NCBI RefSeq assembly: GCF_002095475.1
Contig: NZ_MLFR01000005.1
Span: 62,001-126,000, forward strand
DNA from: Pantoea rwandensis
GTDB lineage: Bacteria; Pseudomonadota; Gammaproteobacteria; Enterobacterales; Enterobacteriaceae
Direction: 5' to 3'
Length of the DNA stretch: 64,000 nt
The translations under genes were made by a program, and so were the position numbers. This document shows positions 7,906 through 52,895 of the stretch, piece by piece (position 1 is the stretch's first letter; the number at the start of each line of letters is the position of its first letter). The notes under the pieces were generated by a model that was given only the letters and a program-made list of their open reading frames with translations, made no database searches and was not told where the DNA came from.

Positions 7906-8835
7906 ATGGCAGATAAAGAGAGTGAAAACAAAGCGTTACTAGAACCTTTTCTGTCGGTGACAAAAAATAGCGGTGAGGTTATTCAACTCCACCCTAATAA
8001 AAATAACACCGTACAACCGGTCGCCTTAATGCGCCTGGGTCTGTTCGTTCCTACATTGAAGTCTACCGCGCGAGGGAAATCCGGTGCGATGGCTTCAACG
8101 GACGCTACAAAAGAGCTGAAGAACCTCTCGCTGGTGAAAGCTGAAGGCTATGAAAAAATTACCATTACCGGCGCGAGGCTGGATATGGATAATGATTTCA
8201 AAACTTGGGCTGGCATTATCCAGTCCTTTTCGCGTTATCCCTCAAAGGGCGACACCGTGACGCTGCCGTTCATCGATTTCGTGAAGATGTGCGGGATCCC
8301 ATCGGCAAACTCGTCAGCGGCCTTACGTAAGCGTTTAGATGCCTCATTACGACGCATTGCAACCAACACGTTGTCCTTTGAAGGTAATGGCAAAGCGTAT
8401 CATACCCACCTTGTGCAGTCGGCGTATTACGATCGTGAAAAGGATCTGGTGCGTATACAGGCCGATCCTAAGTTATTTGAGTTGTATAACTTCGACCATA
8501 AGGTGCTTTTACAATTACGCGCTATCTCGCGCCTCAAGCGTAAGGAGTCAGCGCAAGCGCTGTATACCTACCTTGAAAGCTTACCGACCAATCCTGCACC
8601 TATTTCGCTTGCTCGCTTGCGTATGCGTTTAAACCTAGGGTCAAAGACGACCACCCAGAACCATGTGGTCAGACGCGCAATGGAGCAGTTAAAAGAGATT
8701 GGTTACCTGGATTATTCAGAAGTGAAGCGTGGCCGCTCTGTGTTTTTCATCATCCATAGCAGGACACCAAAACTCGACGGCATCAGCAATCTGGAGAGTA
8801 TCGACTCGCTGGATGAAATCGAGTTCGAAGACTGA
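7906..8835 (+). CDS. repA: Plasmid replication initiator RepA (Rep_3 / RepFIB type)
   Basis: This 309-residue initiator has the two winged-helix layout of the Rep_3 family. Recognisable parts are the N-terminal [22 protein letters not shown], the central [20 protein letters not shown], and the C-terminal winged helix with [17 protein letters not shown]. Proteins of this family bind iterons as monomers to open the origin and as dimers to repress themselves and couple origins. Five iterons and a Dam-site cluster lie immediately upstream and a large iteron array lies downstream, which confirms the role. The start at 7906 gives the expected N terminus. The family call is firm. Confidence 0.95.
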
Positions 8836-8842
8836 AGTTCAC

Positions 8843-10556
8843 GTTCACTGTAATCAGCAATCCTCTCTGTGGCAGTGTCACTTAAGCGTAAAAAGTGACA
8901 TTTGCCCCTCTCCATCTGTTCACTGTAATCAGCGGTTCACTCACCATTCACTGTAATCAGTGTCGTTCACTGTAAACAGTAACTCGCGTTTCGCATAGCC
9001 AAAAACCTTATTGACGAAGCTCTATAGCAACGATGTTTTGCACCAAATATTGATAGTGAGTACTTACCAGGTGGCTTTATTTAAATGATCAGCCGTGTTT
9101 GAAGGCTCTTTTACTGATTACAGTGAACATGGTTTTACTCTCATGACTTCGGCTGATTACAGTGAATCCTGTCTTACTGAAAGGTACTGATTACAGTGAA
9201 CGCAATGATTCAACATCATGATTTAAATCTATTTTTATCTTATTCTCGGTAATTGTTCACTGTAATCAGCATTACACCTGTAAAGGTAAACAGTAAAAGT
9301 GACAGGGTTGGTCACCTTTGCTGATTACAGTGAATCTATGCCTCATTTACCGATTACAGTGAACGTACCACCAGGAGCCGCTGTGGCCGGATGCACCCCC
9401 ATCTTTCTAGCGTCACGCTGTCACTGATTACAGTGAATCTCCTTTCGCCCTGCCCTCTTCCATCGTTGCGCTATTGACGATCAATCCGCTTATCTTGGAT
9501 CCAATTACTGATTACAGTGAACGTTAATTTTGAGTTCAGAGCGGGTTAATCTTGCTGATTACAGTGAACGGTACGAATGGTGTTTTGCACTACGCTAGGC
9601 GTTAACGACGCGGAGCGTTGCTGATTACAGTGAACGATCTGTGATGAAGTCGGGATGCCTATTGCCGCATGGGTGCCTTAAATCCAAAGCCACTTTCGTG
9701 ACTGATTGCTGATTACAGTGAACGATCTGCGATGAAGTCTGGATGCCTCTTGCCGCATGAGCGTCTTAAATACACAGCCATTTTCGTGACTGATTGCTGA
9801 TTACAGTGAATGTTTAGCTAAGCAAGTCAGCCGTGCTTTTGACGGGAATCTTACCTCCCCTGCCCTTACTCATGGCAAAGCTGAACATGAGTCTACTGAT
9901 TACAGTGAACGTTACCACTACCGTTCGCTGACGTTTACTGATTACAGTGAATGGTTTCCGGGAGGAACCTATAATCCTTTGTCCTGTCATCAGCAACTCG
10001 CTCTGCAAGATTTACTGACTATAGTGAACGTAAGAAGGTAGTCTGATTTGGGTTACTGATTACAGTGAATGCTTGATGGCATCGTCATCACTTTTACTGA
10101 TTACAGTGAACGCCGCAAAAATCAGAAGGAGGTTCGATTGCTGATTACAGTGAATGTTGATGATTCGAGCTTCAGCAACAAGGTGTTTTACTGATTACAG
10201 TGAACATTCGGTTTCCACATCCGCATAAGCACCTCCCTCTTCTCTTTAGCAATGTCTACTCCAGCATCTACTGATTACAGTGAACGTTAGCCGATGTATT
10301 GCTGATTACAGTGAATTTTTCACTGATTGCAGTGAATGTTTGCTGTTTATAGTGAATCTTTTACTGATTACAGTGAATAGCATAGAAAACGAAGCCTATC
10401 TCCTGCGTGTGCACTCAATACCGAAGCTTATTGCGAGGCATTTCGGGTGCAATGCTGATTACAGTGAATGTTTGGCCTGTGTCACCAGTGGATACTGATC
10501 ACATTTGGAGCAATTTTTTCTGGGCGATTAAAATGCGTTCACTGATTACAGTGAAT
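8843..10556. repeat. Incompatibility (incA-like) array of about 30 iterons
   Basis: About 30 copies of CTGATTACAGTGAAY lie between repA and parA. Five are on the minus strand (8843, 8918, 8946, 8965, 9255). Twenty-five are on the plus strand (9114, 9153, 9187, 9321, 9350, 9424, 9508, 9555, 9621, 9709, 9797, 9896, 9938, 10015, 10056, 10097, 10141, 10191, 10271, 10302, 10323, 10343, 10364, 10455, 10542). Spacing is irregular and the sequence between copies is not conserved, except for an 88-bp duplication. I see no gene here. Such arrays titrate Rep and hold copy number down; in P1 the equivalent incA has nine copies. Confidence 0.9.
9621..9796 (+). repeat. 88-bp tandem duplication inside the iteron array
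   Basis: The segment 9621-9708 (iteron followed by GATCTGTGATGAAGTC...) is repeated at 9709-9796 with about a dozen substitutions, and the next iteron starts at 9797. The exact 88-bp period and the conserved spacer show that at least part of the array grew by tandem duplication. Confidence 0.85.
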
Positions 10557-10633
10557 CTTTCCATTAACCTACTCTTACTCAAGGTGTTTTCTGAATACCT
10601 ATTGTTCCTCATCAGAAGAGATAGATTTGCCTC

Positions 10634-10668
10634 ATGTGCAGGATTTCGGTATAAAGTCATAAATCCTA
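10634..10668. promoter_or_regulatory. parOP-like operator upstream of parA
   Basis: An interrupted inverted repeat lies immediately before parA: CATGTGCAGGATTT (10633-10646) pairs with AAATCCTACATG (10661-10672), broken by two extra bases in the left arm. In P1 the ParA protein represses its own operon from a large dyad at the same place, so this is the likely autoregulatory operator. Confidence 0.6.
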
Positions 10669-10684
10669 CATGTGTGGAGCAAGT

Positions 10685-11884
10685 ATGGCTAACGATGAGA
10701 AGCAAGTTTTGAAGGTCGCACAACGTTCAGAAAGAATGCTGATGAGCCTGACAGAACAAATTCAGGCGCAAAAAGAAGAGTTGAAGGAAAACACTTTTTA
10801 TCAGGTTTACGCCAAAGCTGCGTTAGCCAAACTGCCTAAATTGACGCGTGCGAGCGTTGATTACGCCGTAAATGAGATGGAAGAAAACGGTTATCCGTTT
10901 GATAAGCGTGCTGCAGGTAGCTCAACGAAGTACGCCATGTCGATTCAGAACATTATCGACATTTACCATCATCGTGGCGTACCTAAGTACCGTGATCGCC
11001 ATTCGGAAGCTTTTACCCTGTTTGTCGGCAACCTTAAGGGTGGCGTGTCTAAAACGGTTTCAACGGTATCGCTTGCTCACGCATTGCGCGCTCATCCGCA
11101 CTTGCTCTATGAAGACCTGCGTATTCTGGTTATCGACCTTGACCCACAATCCTCCGCGACGATGTTCCTTAATCATGAGCGTTCGGTTGGGTTGGTTGAA
11201 GCGACGGCTGCGCAGGCGATGCTGCAAAATGTCGGTCGTGAAGAGTTGCTGAACGAGTTTATCGTGCCCTCCATCATACCGGGTGTGGATGTGCTGCCTG
11301 CTTCTATCGATGACGCCTTTATAGCTTCACGTTGGGAAGAATTGTGTGCTCAACATCTGTCGACACAAAACGTGCATGCAGTGTTGTATGAAAACGTCGT
11401 GGCTAAGCTGAAGAAAGATTATGACTTCATCTTTATCGACAGTGGCCCACACTTGGATGCTTTCTTGAAAAATGCCATTGCGGCTTCCGATCTGTTGATG
11501 ACGCCGGTTCCCCCAGCGCAAGTGGATTTCCACTCCACACTCAAATATCTAACGCGTTTGCCGGAACTGATTGGCATTATTGAGGAATCAGGTGCCGCCT
11601 GCCGCTTACAAGGCAATATCGGCTTTATGTCCAAACTCTCCAATAAAGCGGACCATAAGCTCTGTCATAGCTTGGCTAAAGAGATTTTTGGCGGGGATAT
11701 GTTGGATGCTGCGCTACCACGACTTGATGGCTTTGAGCGTTGCGGAGAATCCTTTGATACCGTGATTTCAGCTAATCCATCAACTTATGTAGGTAGCACC
11801 GAAGCCCTGAAAAACGCGCGCTCAGCAGCGGAAGATTTCGCTAAAGCCGTGTTTGATCGTATTGAATTTATTCGCCTGAACTGA
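10685..11884 (+). CDS. parA: Partition ATPase ParA (P1/P7 type)
   Basis: The 399-residue protein has an N-terminal DNA-binding extension (about 1-105) and a deviant Walker ATPase. The P-loop reads NLKGGVSKTVSTVSLAHAL, Walker A' is VIDLDPQSSATM, and Walker B is FIFIDSGPHLD. These match the large Type Ia ParA of phage P1 (398 residues) almost word for word. The start at 10685 (MANDEKQ) is chosen over an in-frame ATG at 10670 because GGAG at 10676-10679 is correctly spaced only for the later one. With ParB and parS it moves plasmid copies over the nucleoid and also represses the operon. Confidence 0.93.
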   Translation: MANDEKQVLKVAQRSERMLMSLTEQIQAQKEELKENTFYQVYAKAALAKLPKLTRASVDYAVNEMEENGYPFDKRAAGSSTKYAMSIQNIIDIYHHRGVPKYRDRHSEAFTLFVGNLKGGVSKTVSTVSLAHALRAHPHLLYEDLRILVIDLDPQSSATMFLNHERSVGLVEATAAQAMLQNVGREELLNEFIVPSIIPGVDVLPASIDDAFIASRWEELCAQHLSTQNVHAVLYENVVAKLKKDYDFIFIDSGPHLDAFLKNAIAASDLLMTPVPPAQVDFHSTLKYLTRLPELIGIIEESGAACRLQGNIGFMSKLSNKADHKLCHSLAKEIFGGDMLDAALPRLDGFERCGESFDTVISANPSTYVGSTEALKNARSAAEDFAKAVFDRIEFIRLN

Positions 11885-11891
11885 GGTTACT

Positions 11892-12863
11892 ATGAGCGCA
11901 AAAAGAATCACGATTGGCCGAACCTTCAGCCAGACACCTTTGCAAACTGAGGATGCTTCAGAAGGCCATTCTCAGACATTTATCCTATCGACCGGGAAAC
12001 GTGCCCTGTTCACCTTAGAGCACATCACGGCGAAGGAAATTGAAGAAAGAACCTATGTGGTCATGGAAACCAATGGCCGAGATCAATCTGGTCTGACGCC
12101 AGAGTCGCTTCGCGATATCATTCGTACCATCAAGTTGCAGCAGTTCTTCCCGGCTATTGGTGTACTGCGTGGTGACCGCATTGAGATTCTTGACGGCTCT
12201 CGTCGCCGTGCGGCCGCTCTACACTGTAAAACTGGCCTGGATGTGCTGGTGACTGAGGTGGCTATCTCCGCTGAAGAAGCCCGTCGTTTGGCGCAAGACA
12301 TCCAGACAGCGCGTGAACACAACCTGCGTGAAGTAGGCATGCGATTGATGTCGTTGAAGGAGAGCGGTCTGTCGCAGAAGGAGATTGCACAAAGCGAAGG
12401 ATTATCTCAGGCCAAGGTGACACGTGCCTTGCAAGCTGCTAGCGTCCCGCTGGAGCTGGTGACGCTGTTTCCAAACCACTCTGAATTGACCTATCCAGAT
12501 TACAAAACGCTGTTGCAGGCTTTTGAGAAGTTGCAGGAGACCGGTCAAACGGTTGAAGCCCTCATTGATACCATCGGGATGGATGTTGATACCGTTTGTG
12601 CCCGCGATGGCTTAGCAGAAGATGAAGTGAAGAACGGTATTCTGCGCTTGGTACGAAATGGCAGCCAGACGCTGATTCAGTCACCTGAAAAAGATAAAGC
12701 CGTTGCCACACCTTTATGGAGTTTCGCAGATAAAGACCGTTACGCTCGCAAGAAAACGCGTGGCCGTATGTTTAGCTACGAGTTTAATCGCCAGTCCCGC
12801 GAACTGCAGGAAGAGCTGGATAGAGTGATAAACGAGACGCTCAATAAATATCTCAATCAATAA
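11892..12863 (+). CDS. parB: Centromere-binding protein ParB (P1/P7 type)
   Basis: The 323-residue protein starts 7 bp after parA. It has the ParB nuclease-like/N-terminal region (GDRIEILDGSRRRAAALH), a central helix-turn-helix (SQKEIAQSEGLSQAKVTRAL), and a C-terminal dimerisation domain (after about residue 270, ending YEFNRQSRELQEELDRV). P1 ParB, 333 residues, binds two motif types in parS: heptameric A boxes through the helix-turn-helix and hexameric B boxes through the dimer domain. Both box types are present in the DNA just downstream, so the assignment is well supported. Confidence 0.93.
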   Translation: MSAKRITIGRTFSQTPLQTEDASEGHSQTFILSTGKRALFTLEHITAKEIEERTYVVMETNGRDQSGLTPESLRDIIRTIKLQQFFPAIGVLRGDRIEILDGSRRRAAALHCKTGLDVLVTEVAISAEEARRLAQDIQTAREHNLREVGMRLMSLKESGLSQKEIAQSEGLSQAKVTRALQAASVPLELVTLFPNHSELTYPDYKTLLQAFEKLQETGQTVEALIDTIGMDVDTVCARDGLAEDEVKNGILRLVRNGSQTLIQSPEKDKAVATPLWSFADKDRYARKKTRGRMFSYEFNRQSRELQEELDRVINETLNKYLNQ

Positions 12864-12909: not shown

Positions 12910-12994
12910 TCGCCATAGCGATTTCACCGCTAACTGTATGAAAAATCACAAACAGGTGATGAAATTTCAGGCTGAAATCGCCAAAGATTTCACC
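12910..12994 (+). other. parS: parS partition site 1 (P1 architecture)
   Basis: In order: box B TCGCCA (12910-12915); box A GATTTCACC (12920-12928); an A-rich spacer (12935-12960) in the position of the IHF site; facing A boxes ATTTCAG-GCTGAAAT (12964-12978); box B TCGCCA (12978-12983); and box A GATTTCACC (12986-12994). This is the same box order and spacing logic as the bipartite, IHF-bent P1 parS, and it sits directly downstream of parB as in P1. Confidence 0.88.
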
Positions 12995-13131: not shown

Positions 13132-13225
13132 TCGCCAAGGTGATTTCATACGTAATGTGTTGAAAATAAACAAATATTAAAAGAAATTTCAGGGTGAAAT
13201 CGCCAAGTTTCGCAAGCATTTCAAC
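13132..13225 (+). other. parS: parS partition site 2 (second tandem copy)
   Basis: A second set of boxes follows about 220 bp later: TCGCCA (13132-13137), GATTTCAT (13142-13149), an AT-rich spacer (13150-13185), ATTTCAGGGTGAAAT (13186-13200), TCGCCA (13200-13205) and a degenerate CATTTCAAC (13217-13225). The layout copies site 1 with sequence drift in the outer boxes. The right half, the strong ParB-binding part in P1, is the better preserved half. Confidence 0.8.
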
Positions 13226-43334: not shown

Positions 43335-44156
43335 ATGGCAGTGAAAATGATTGCGGTGGATATGGATGGCACTTTTCTCGACGATAACAAGCAATACAAC
43401 GCGCAGCGCTTTGCGCGCCAGTACGCGTTGCTGAAAGAGAAAGGCATTCGCTTTGTGGTCGCTAGCGGTAATCAGTATTACCAATTGCAGCGCTATTTCC
43501 CTGAGATAAAAGATGAAATCGCGTTTGTTGCTGAGAATGGCGCTTGGGTATCAGACAGCAATGAAGAGATCTTCTGCGGCGAATTAGCGCCAGAACGTGT
43601 GCACCAAATTCTGGATATTCTGGCGAGAGAGCCGGACATCAGCACGGTGGTGTGTGGCCGTAACGGTGCCTATGTTCATACCTCGATGCCGGAAGAGGTG
43701 ATTGCGATGTTAGCCAATCACTACCATCGCCTTGAGAAGCGCGACAATTTGTATGATATCGATGACACCATCTTCAAATTTTCACTCAATCTGGCACACG
43801 AAGGGGTGGATGCTTTAATGGGGCGCCTGCATGCGGAACTGGGCGCGATTGAAAACATTATGCATCCCGTCTCGAGTGGCTTTGGTTTCGTCGATTTGAT
43901 CATTCCCGGTTGCCATAAGGCACATGGCATTGCGCTACTGCAGGAAAAATGGGGCATCGACGATTGCGAAGTCTTGGCGATTGGCGATAGCGCCAACGAC
44001 CTCGAAATGCTGCGTCAGGCGTGCTACAGCTTTTCGATGGCCAATGCATCCACACCTGTGGCCGCCGTTGCGCGTTATAAAACCGATAGCAATAACGACG
44101 AGGGTGCGCTTAACGTGATTGCACGCTTGTTGGCCCGCGAAGAGCCGTTTGGCTAA
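43335..44156 (+). CDS. HAD-family sugar phosphatase, YbiV/SupH-like
   Basis: The 273-residue Cof-type HAD phosphatase shows motif I DMDGTFLDD, motif II VVASGNQYYQLQRYFPE, the lysine of motif III in HKAHGIALLQ, and motif IV IGDSANDLEML. Its wording follows E. coli YbiV closely, a sugar-phosphate phosphatase. It stands alone, with AGGAG-like GGGAGAG before the ATG. Confidence 0.9.
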   Translation: MAVKMIAVDMDGTFLDDNKQYNAQRFARQYALLKEKGIRFVVASGNQYYQLQRYFPEIKDEIAFVAENGAWVSDSNEEIFCGELAPERVHQILDILAREPDISTVVCGRNGAYVHTSMPEEVIAMLANHYHRLEKRDNLYDIDDTIFKFSLNLAHEGVDALMGRLHAELGAIENIMHPVSSGFGFVDLIIPGCHKAHGIALLQEKWGIDDCEVLAIGDSANDLEMLRQACYSFSMANASTPVAAVARYKTDSNNDEGALNVIARLLAREEPFG

Positions 44157-50887: not shown

Positions 50888-51937
50888 ATGAAAATCAATG
50901 CATTAGTCGCACAGGATGCGGAAAAACCACTGGTATCCAGCCAGATCGCGCTACGTTCACTGCAACCGCAGGACGTTAAAATCGATATCCTCTACTGCGG
51001 TGTATGCCACTCCGATCTTCATATGGCGCGGAACGAGTGGGCGGTAAGCCGCTATCCACTGGTGCCAGGCCATGAAATCGTGGGACGCGTGGTAGAAACC
51101 GGCACAGCGGTCACAAACTTCAAGGTCGGTGATGTTGTGGGTGTTGGCGTAATGGTCGACTCCTGTCGCGAATGTCACTTCTGCCAACAGCAAGAAGAAC
51201 AGTATTGCGAAGCCGGTTTTACGCCGACTTACAACGGTATCGATAAGCACACTGGCGACAGCACGTGGGGCGGCTACGCGCAGAATGTGGTGGTCGATCA
51301 GCATTTTGTGGTGTCAGTACCGCAAAACTTGCCACTGGCAGGTGTTGCACCTTTGCTCTGCGCAGGTGTCACCGTATGGTCGCCGTTACGTCATTTTAAA
51401 GTACAAGCGGGCGATAAAGTCGGCGTGGTCGGCTTAGGCGGCTTGGGTCATATGGCGGTCAAACTGGCGAGCGCGATGGGTGCGGAAGTCACGTTGTTCA
51501 CCACCTCTCCGGAGAAGGGCGTTGATGCACGCCGTCTCGGCGCAAGCCGTGTTGTCGTGTCGCGTGATGATGCGCAGATGGCAGCGGCGCAAACCTCTCT
51601 CGATTTCATTATCGACTGCGTTTCCGCGCCACACGACCTCGATCCGTACCTCGCGACCTTAAAAACCAATGGCCGCCTGGTGCTGGTGGGGATTCCTGAG
51701 CAGCCTCATCAGTCTCCCGACGTGACGCCGATGGTGTTCCGTCGTTTAAGCATCAGCGGTTCATCGATTGGCAGTATTCAAGAGACGCAGGAGATGTTGG
51801 ATTTCTGTGGCGAACACAACATCACAGCGGACATTGAATTAATTGCTGGAGAGACGGTGGAAAATGCCTTTGCGCGTATGCTGAAGGGCGATGTGAAGTA
51901 TCGCTTCGTCATTGATATGGCGGCTACCCGCTGGTAA
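50888..51937 (+). CDS. yahK: Zinc-dependent alcohol dehydrogenase/aldehyde reductase, YahK-like
   Basis: The 349-residue cinnamyl-alcohol-type dehydrogenase has catalytic zinc ligands in YCGVCHSDLH and PGHEIVGRV, a structural zinc loop SCRECHFCQQQEEQYC, and the NADP motif GVVGLGGLGHMAVKLA. It follows the E. coli YahK sequence along its length. YahK reduces a wide range of aldehydes with NADPH. It is divergent from an HxlR regulator, a common arrangement for electrophile-responsive reductases. Confidence 0.9.
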   Translation: MKINALVAQDAEKPLVSSQIALRSLQPQDVKIDILYCGVCHSDLHMARNEWAVSRYPLVPGHEIVGRVVETGTAVTNFKVGDVVGVGVMVDSCRECHFCQQQEEQYCEAGFTPTYNGIDKHTGDSTWGGYAQNVVVDQHFVVSVPQNLPLAGVAPLLCAGVTVWSPLRHFKVQAGDKVGVVGLGGLGHMAVKLASAMGAEVTLFTTSPEKGVDARRLGASRVVVSRDDAQMAAAQTSLDFIIDCVSAPHDLDPYLATLKTNGRLVLVGIPEQPHQSPDVTPMVFRRLSISGSSIGSIQETQEMLDFCGEHNITADIELIAGETVENAFARMLKGDVKYRFVIDMAATRW

Positions 51938-51943
51938 AAATCT

Positions 51944-51968
51944 TGGCGATTTCAGGCTGAAATCGCCA
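51944..51968. other. Symmetric parS-like element, distant from the partition locus
   Basis: A 25-bp palindrome reads TGGCGA, then ATTTCAGGCTGAAAT, then TCGCCA. These are facing box B motifs around facing box A motifs of the P1 parS type. Twenty consecutive bases (51949-51968) are identical to parS site 1 (12964-12983). It also lies 7 bp after a stop codon and could be read as a terminator stem, but it has no T-run. Confidence 0.6.
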
Positions 51969-51977
51969 GATTAAAAC

Positions 51978-52895
51978 TTAATCAAGCTGCGTTTTTGAAC
52001 TGAGGGAAAAGTGCTGCACCAGTTGCGCCGCGTTGAGATTGTCATGGTGAGACAAACCCGCGGCGACAATTTCCAGTACATTCTGACCGCAGGCGACGTA
52101 AAGCGGATCGGTAGAAATGATCTTGCCCGGTGCATATTGATGCGGCTGGGCAACCACGCGACTTTTCCACACGATAAAGCGCTGCTCGCCAATGAGACTG
52201 TAAGCACCAGGCCATGGATAGGCTACACCGCGAATCAAACAATGAATCTCATCCGCAGACTGCTGCCAGTGAATCTGCCCATCCTCAGGTTTACGCTGTC
52301 CAGGTTCGCTCGCCAGACGCTCATCTTGGGCGCGCTCGATCAAACTTCCTGCCTGCAAGCCACGTAACCACTGCGGCATATGTTCGCGTGTAGTGCGCAC
52401 CAGTTTGCGGTGCAGTGACAGCGCGTCATCTTCATCAGTAATGGCGACACGGTGTTGTGCCAGAATCGGACCACCATCAGGGGTGGGGTTAATACGATGC
52501 AGCGTCACGCCGGTTTCGCGTTCATTGCGAATAATGACCCAATTAAGATGGGCACGACCGCGATAGGCAGGCAGCAGTGAAGCGTGGACATTGAACGCCC
52601 CCTTTTTCGCCGTGGCGATCAACGCGGGGCAGAGTGCTTGCCGATATGACAAGGTGAAAATCGCATCCGGTTGCAGGGCAGCGACCTTAGCAACCCATTC
52701 TGGGGTATTGATATCATCCGCATAAAACACCGGGATCTGTTGCTGCTGCGCCAGCGTTTCGACCGAGTCAAAGAAGCTATTCTCCTGACTGGCCCCCGCA
52801 TGGGTGAAGACGCAAGCCACTTCGCATCCCACTTCCTGCAAACTCTCCAGCGCTGCGCACCCCATTTCGTGATACGCATATAACACCACTTTCAT
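51978..52895 (-). CDS. Formyltransferase, stand-alone ArnA N-terminal-like protein
   Basis: The 305-residue protein is a formyltetrahydrofolate-dependent formyltransferase, with the catalytic Asn-His pair in GAFNVHASLLPAYRGR and the aspartate in NPTPDGGPILAQ, followed by a C-terminal OB-like domain. Its wording (YAYHEMGCAAL, TGVTLHRI, RRPEDG-like RKPEDGQIHW) follows the formyltransferase half of ArnA, which formylates UDP-Ara4N in polymyxin resistance. The decarboxylase half of ArnA is absent and no arn operon is near, so it probably formylates another amino sugar or amine. Confidence 0.85.
   Translation of the reverse strand: MKVVLYAYHEMGCAALESLQEVGCEVACVFTHAGASQENSFFDSVETLAQQQQIPVFYADDINTPEWVAKVAALQPDAIFTLSYRQALCPALIATAKKGAFNVHASLLPAYRGRAHLNWVIIRNERETGVTLHRINPTPDGGPILAQHRVAITDEDDALSLHRKLVRTTREHMPQWLRGLQAGSLIERAQDERLASEPGQRKPEDGQIHWQQSADEIHCLIRGVAYPWPGAYSLIGEQRFIVWKSRVVAQPHQYAPGKIISTDPLYVACGQNVLEIVAAGLSHHDNLNAAQLVQHFSLSSKTQLD

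Follow-up and report, generated by a model that had tools for sequence, protein, structure and literature searches.

A candidate distal ParB-loading palindrome on a Pantoea megaplasmid with P1-type partition genes

Dimers of the P1 partition protein ParB contact the A boxes of their centromere, parS, through a helix-turn-helix (HTH) and the B box through a dimer domain, and recognition of the minimal site has been solved structurally. The Spo0J/ParB proteins of chromosomes form a different ParB lineage with a 16-bp site, and the centromere sites of the linear plasmid-prophage N15 are dispersed away from sop. Within P1 parS, the A2-A3 pair and B2 are reported to suffice for ParB binding, and a near-identical copy of P1 parS is described directly 3' of parB on the 0.58-Mb plasmid of P. 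agglomerans L15; a text search of that article found no mention of second, additional or parS-like sites (PMC10999674). P1 ParB dimers are described as able to contact or pair parS half-sites on two DNA molecules, and chromosomal parS of the Spo0J/ParB type as present in several copies, the majority of them within the origin domain (PMC5002424). N15 is described as having four inverted-repeat centromere sites, IR1-4 (PMC7205306). Among repABC replicons, distant centromeres are reported for pAMI4 (3parS) and for chromosome 2 of Allorhizobium vitis, with extra parS separated from the replication gene by 11.5 kb or by 30-90 kb; the 3parS of pAMI4 is bound by RepB and required for stability (PMC9040568). 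Among the open-licence papers listed, judged by title and the first lines of the abstract, none describes such dispersal on LPP-1 or P1-type megaplasmids.

The window analysed here, a stretch of 64,000 nucleotides from Pantoea rwandensis, is part of a megaplasmid with P1-type ParAB, which we take, from DNA matches to large Pantoea plasmids and from features of the group, to be of the LPP-1 type. The hallmarks of the P1 par family are present: ParA has an N-terminal HTH domain, ParB (52.9% identical to P1 ParB) combines an HTH with a B-box-binding dimer domain, and parS of the form B-A ... A-A-B follows parB directly, in two copies (Table 1). A RepA-type iteron array is dense between the replication initiator gene and parA (8900-10700), where 25 of the window's 29 exact copies of GATTACAGTGAA, counted in both orientations, are found. 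The genome also holds a second P1-like plasmid, with a ParB paralogue (46% identical) on contig C2; no core of the type described below occurs near that paralogue in a 6-kb stretch searched with up to two mismatches.

The original prediction had pointed to a 25-bp palindrome with facing B boxes around facing A boxes, 20 bp of it identical to parS site 1 some 39 kb away, and had judged chance identity improbable. Each of these statements holds. The 12-bp arms (51944-51955 and 51957-51968), separated by one nucleotide, are 100% complementary, the 25-mer differs from its own reverse complement solely at the central base, and the boxes can be read as named in the P1 record, in which A boxes are heptameric and B boxes hexameric. 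The core at 51949-51968 repeats 12964-12983 of parS site 1 at a distance of 39.0 kb from the partition locus, and differs from the corresponding core of parS site 2 by one base. When aligned with A2-A3-B2 of P1, the core keeps the six-base words ATTTCA, TGAAAT and TCGCCA intact, and both mismatches fall at the innermost of the seven A-box bases, a position filled by A or C in P1's own A boxes. Read from the minus strand, the same two box positions and a spacer base differ. Thus 17 of the 19 annotated P1 box positions are matched in both orientations, with TCGCCA kept, and the palindrome would qualify as the P1 minimal ParB site (parS-small), an inverted A2-A3 pair with an adjacent B2. It does not amount to a full P1 parS, which has a left B-A arm as well as the right arm; the left arm is missing, since no A or B box word other than the palindrome's own lies within 100 bp either way. 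Nowhere else in the window does the 25-mer recur at up to three mismatches, and 100 shuffles gave 0 matches. From this resemblance and the distribution described below, we consider it likely that this element serves the plasmid's own P1-type ParB as a distal site of loading.

Table 1. Features of the window and of related loci
Feature	Position	Strand	Remarks
Replication initiator, Rep3 family	7906-8835	+	Across parA from parS
parA	10670-11884	+	N-terminal HTH_54 domain, PF18607, E 1.2e-45
parB, P1 type	11892-12863	+	323 aa; Pfam PF08775; residues 136-322 align to P1 ParB structures 2ntz/1zx4, E 1e-59
parS site 1	12910-12993	+	Left B and A boxes, spacer, A-A-B-A; core 12964-12983
parS site 2	13132-13205	+	Left B and A boxes, spacer, A-A-B core 13186-13205
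Zinc-dependent alcohol dehydrogenase gene (adh)	50888-51937	+	6 bp separate its stop codon from the palindrome
B-A-A-B palindrome, 25 bp	51944-51968	.	Proposed distal ParB site
B box TGGCGA, left	51944-51949		
A box ATTTCAG, left	51949-51955		
A box CTGAAAT, right	51957-51963		
B box TCGCCA, right	51963-51968		
A-A-B core	51949-51968	+	20/20 bp as in parS site 1; 18/20 as in P1 A2-A3-B2
A-A-B core, opposite strand	51944-51963	-	17/20 bases as in P1 A2-A3-B2
Formyltransferase-like gene	51978-52895	-	Convergent with adh; palindrome could end its transcript
Regulator-end loci (picked by eye)			L008, L030, L037, L048, L077, L080, L084, L088, L095, L098

The core pattern ATTTCANNNTGAAATCGCCA has 17 fixed bases. 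At equal base frequencies, chance would yield about 0.0007 occurrences over the 5.78-Mb genome, in which the pattern has six exact matches at five places and the reversed control none. On contig C5 these are the parS pair (74964 and 75186), the palindrome (113944-113968) and a further core at 43762, on the far side of parS from the palindrome at 31 kb; the fifth place is C1:115947. Inexact cores occur at C1:389730 (one mismatch) and C17:73915 (two mismatches). The place at C1:115947 has flanking genes in common with places on the parB contig of another genome (G019) and on the plasmid NC_014838, so contig C1 probably belongs to the same megaplasmid as the window.

Similar cores recur in all 14 large plasmid records scanned (13 from Pantoea and one labelled Pseudomonas silvicola; 13 recorded as circular and W14 as linear), with none in the reversed control, and in all 14 a core pair lies just after the ParB coding sequence, ParB being annotated in pieces in W01. 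With up to one mismatch allowed, each record has one to four distal places, 33 in total, at 2.5-404 kb from parB; in 12 of the 33 the best orientation has one mismatch. In the biocontrol strain P. vagans C9-1, the distal palindrome stands at 516690 of NC_014258. Within 90 kb of parS lie 22 of the 33, against 8.6 expected under uniform placement (0 of 100,000 simulations). Over the range of 0.45-0.95 Mb, larger plasmids tend to have more distal places (Spearman 0.76, p 0.0015, a statistic that ignores descent, while the plasmids are related by descent and the counts are not independent). Some of these records seem to duplicate molecules of the genomes considered next (identical coordinates, for example in W04/G040, W05/G039 and W13/G014), and the two sets are not additive. 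One of the records, CP093281.1 (L001, L002), is a plasmid of 952,764 bp entered under the name Pseudomonas silvicola T1-3-2. Its replicon type, cores, adh and parB region are those of the Pantoea megaplasmids, with ParB annotated in pieces and adh unannotated; this suggests host mislabelling or a mixed assembly, plus sequence errors.

Across the genus, presence of the core follows presence of this ParB. Fifty-three of 61 genomes contain the core (reversed control 0 in all 61), and a ParB with 71% or more identity to that of the window is encoded in precisely these 53; the core is found in 0 of the eight genomes that do not encode it, four of which have only a paralogue of about 45% identity and four no match at all. 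Distances were measured along contigs rather than round circles, from the matches listed (four of six for G046) and, for G047-G060, from matches to the pattern without its last base; they omit places with a mismatch, whereas the 14-record count allows up to one mismatch per place. On this basis, and among the matches listed, a core lies beyond 1 kb of parB or off its contig in 49 of the 53 genomes, the other four (G015, G021, G030 and G041) having none beyond 1 kb. Of the 52 genomes in which parB and a core share a contig, 40 have one at over 5 kb from parB on that contig. In the 19 genomes with at most nine contigs (about 98 Mb in total), 0 of the cores listed lie off the parB contig. Fragmentation affects individual cases: G009 is too fragmented for its places to be classified, and in G020 all three places are off the parB contig, two of them, 426 bp apart, being probably the parS pair at a contig break.

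Several genomes depart from the common arrangement. Four core sites stand beside parB in G015 (contig C8, L107) as a tandem array with a spacing of about 166 bp, with no distal exact core among the matches listed, which amounts to local multiplication rather than dispersal. At L012, L013, L014 and L016, the distal cores are just 1.4-8 kb from parB, near iteron-like repeats. In G060 (C5:69192-70159), parB is split into two overlapping pieces, the second with in-frame stops, and the cores are present; this reflects either recent decay or sequencing error.

Beyond the genus, the palindrome itself was found in three of 295 sampled family genomes, namely this one and two from other genera (G186 and G269), and all three encode this type of ParB, most of the other 292 being outside the ParB search. 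Relative to the ParB of the window, that of G269 is 58-59% identical and that of G186 52%. In G186 the cores are 9-11 kb from parB, with none within 1.5 kb of it. In G269 the palindrome, with a different spacer, is the sole exact core beside parB, 70 bp past the stop codon; it occupies the position of parS and is followed by an imperfect fourth A box on the minus strand. This arrangement comes closest to a natural experiment on whether a symmetric site can act as parS. As one observation that would speak against a ParB site, the original prediction had named the 20-mer being widespread in terminators of the host; this was not seen, the core being present in 0 of the eight genus genomes without this ParB and the palindrome in three of 295 family genomes. 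A generic host terminator or repeat, present irrespective of the plasmid, is ruled out by these two scans.

The symmetric B-A-A-B form is confined to distal sites in the genus genomes counted. Among the matches listed, none of the 92 cores that lie 1 kb or less from parB is palindromic, as against 29 of 87 distal places, a denominator that includes 13 places counted as distal merely by sitting on a contig other than that of parB and is slightly too high, because the G020 pair is probably parS cut off by a contig break. This bears on another suggestion of the original prediction, that the element is the footprint of a recombination event by which a piece of parS was copied or moved to this position. 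The 20 bp shared with parS site 1 are in keeping with such a transfer, but donor sites near parB lack the symmetric form, the site after adh persists in plasmids with quite different flanks, and the 60-bp flanks match parS at 11-22 of 60 positions, which is about chance (ungapped, both sites, both orientations). With flank identity to both parS sites at this level, the suggestion is disfavoured, and we regard it as extremely improbable.

What surrounds the distal cores is highly varied. The flanking genes of 76 distal loci (partition-region loci, core-less loci and second fetches of one place excluded) fall into 12 groups with no ORF common between groups, five of the 12 being single loci; the largest group merges several contexts through shared paralogues. 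A site follows adh, 7 to 42 bp behind its stop codon, in 15 of the 20 loci compared (L015, L023 and second fetches left out). The remaining five have no core after adh, and the location is therefore dispensable. The next gene after the site varies as well, being a formyltransferase here and elsewhere a chemotaxis receptor, a trehalase, a nucleotidyltransferase or others. In all 15 sites the 12 A-box bases are invariant and at least one CGCC is kept, while the spacer and the outermost pair vary, a regularity that is partly by construction, as the search accepted at most one mismatch and decayed sites would count as absent. Elsewhere a peptidase gene contains a core, a transporter-component gene has one at its end, and other cores stand between convergent or between tandem genes. 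The place after an SDR gene, with AraC-type and corA genes on either side, has the palindromic form in one plasmid and the single-sided form in another. Given these varied contexts and single-sided forms, the recurring item is the A-A-B sequence and not the hairpin. At the 3' end of a helix-turn-helix regulator gene, the core encodes the last residues and the stop codon (ISA* or ISG*) in 10 of 10 loci (Table 1), and would there be a putative protein-binding site within coding sequence.

The same survey bears on whether the palindrome is a mere intrinsic terminator between convergent genes, with a stem that resembles parS by chance. Its hairpin is stable (-18.7 kcal/mol, z -4.9, plus strand), and a terminator score is obtained on the minus strand only, with five T in the eight bases after the stem (0.5 sites expected in shuffles of the region); the plus strand has no such tail for adh. 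A T-rich tail on one side accompanies 9 of 27 palindromic loci, or 8 of 25 once L113 and L116, duplicates of L035 and L053, are removed; for random positions in the fetched loci the figure is 9.7%. The 27 include L108, a palindrome at a partition locus, and 18 of them have no tail. As read by eye, the core-less adh loci of P. agglomerans, P. anthophila, P. vagans and P. deleyi have a different hairpin-like repeat in that place, but L029 and L103 have a separate GC-rich hairpin of their own, followed by a single-sided core. Many distal cores are single-sided, and of two that were folded neither beats its shuffles (z -0.2 and 0.1). Others lie inside or end coding sequences, and the core is missing from the genus genomes without this ParB. 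Termination as the whole explanation thus fails to account for single-sided cores, in-gene cores and the coupling to ParB, and we judge it very unlikely. Some loci may plausibly use the palindrome for termination as well, in view of the mixed outcome of the tail counts and of the minus-strand score and fold at this locus. Hence the plain stem-loop after adh that the original prediction had allowed for stands as a possible additional role and is very unlikely as the sole account.

A different view would keep ParB as the ligand and assign the sites mainly to local gene control (silencing, anti-silencing or roadblock), with ParB acting in the manner of VirB and not in partition. P1-type ParB is indeed related to VirB (3vwb at E 1e-21), several distal cores adjoin transcription regulators, two of these cores being near siderophore-receptor genes. 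The neighbours nevertheless differ among plasmids, with no common regulon in the regions read, and the distal cores cluster round the partition locus. We consider gene control as the main function unlikely.

The reading we prefer, a distal site for loading of the plasmid's own ParB, corresponds to the distant ParB nucleation site of the original prediction, which had not placed the element in a set. To this reading the A-A-B core, the co-presence with ParB, the recurrence in 14 of 14 plasmid records and the palindrome in the parS position of G269 lend support at the level of sequence comparison. ParB dimers would place their HTH domains on the A boxes and the dimer domain on a B box. Loading and spreading would begin from several places, with the distal sites bridged to the parS pair; bridging comes naturally to a protein whose P1 counterpart contacts half-sites on two DNA molecules. 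One enlarged partition complex could in this way gather the origin region of a plasmid of 0.45-0.95 Mb. The symmetric B-A-A-B form, readable on both strands, may be a stronger binding or loading site for ParB than a single core, and at this locus the hairpin may additionally terminate the minus-strand transcript. Candidate functions of the distal sites are folding of the origin, robustness of partition, or gene control. The scattered cores on related plasmids suggest handling through several centromere sites, as in chromosomes. A more general proposal, which we advance tentatively and at slightly less than even confidence, is that a P1-type system with a single site gave rise, in LPP-1 megaplasmids, to a multi-site centromere like that of chromosomes. 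ParB would join its distal sites, often flanking the replication-partition locus (for example about 37 kb or 31 kb on either side) and with one or two far away in many plasmids, into a single origin domain. Larger plasmids would have more of these sites, and B-A-A-B would be a distinct distal ParB-loading element.

These considerations bear on why large replicons have several dispersed ParB sites and small plasmids often one. The Pantoea megaplasmids offer a natural series for this question, with one ParB family, a graded range of sizes and P1 as a smaller, single-site relative. There is also a practical side: ParB sites function in partition incompatibility (PMC10999674), and extra sites therefore matter for curing these plasmids with P1.

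Compared with known systems, the locus is closest to P1 parS and parS-small and to the Pantoea LPP-type relatives, with which it shares the A and B box words and the A2-A3-B2 order, and its ParB belongs to the P1 par family, where parS likewise stands beside parB. It differs from P1 parS in that the palindrome's core is remote from parB, has B boxes on both sides and has no left arm. Up to one mismatch, the 94.8 kb of P1 contain a single core, as does a 423-kb Klebsiella plasmid whose ParB is related, while a 135-kb Cronobacter plasmid has two cores beside parB and one with a mismatch 4 kb away; wide dispersal is therefore not general for the P1 par family, as judged from this sample of three. 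The distant centromeres of repABC replicons involve another ParB/parS family and are non-coding clusters of two or three repeats, in contrast to single sites spread over the replicon here. N15 resembles the present case in its inverted-repeat sites, four per replicon, but it is a small linear prophage and uses SopB rather than a P1-type ParB. Dispersed parS are thus already known from repABC replicons, N15 and chromosomes; what is new here is their apparent occurrence on a P1-type megaplasmid, and the symmetric B-A-A-B form.
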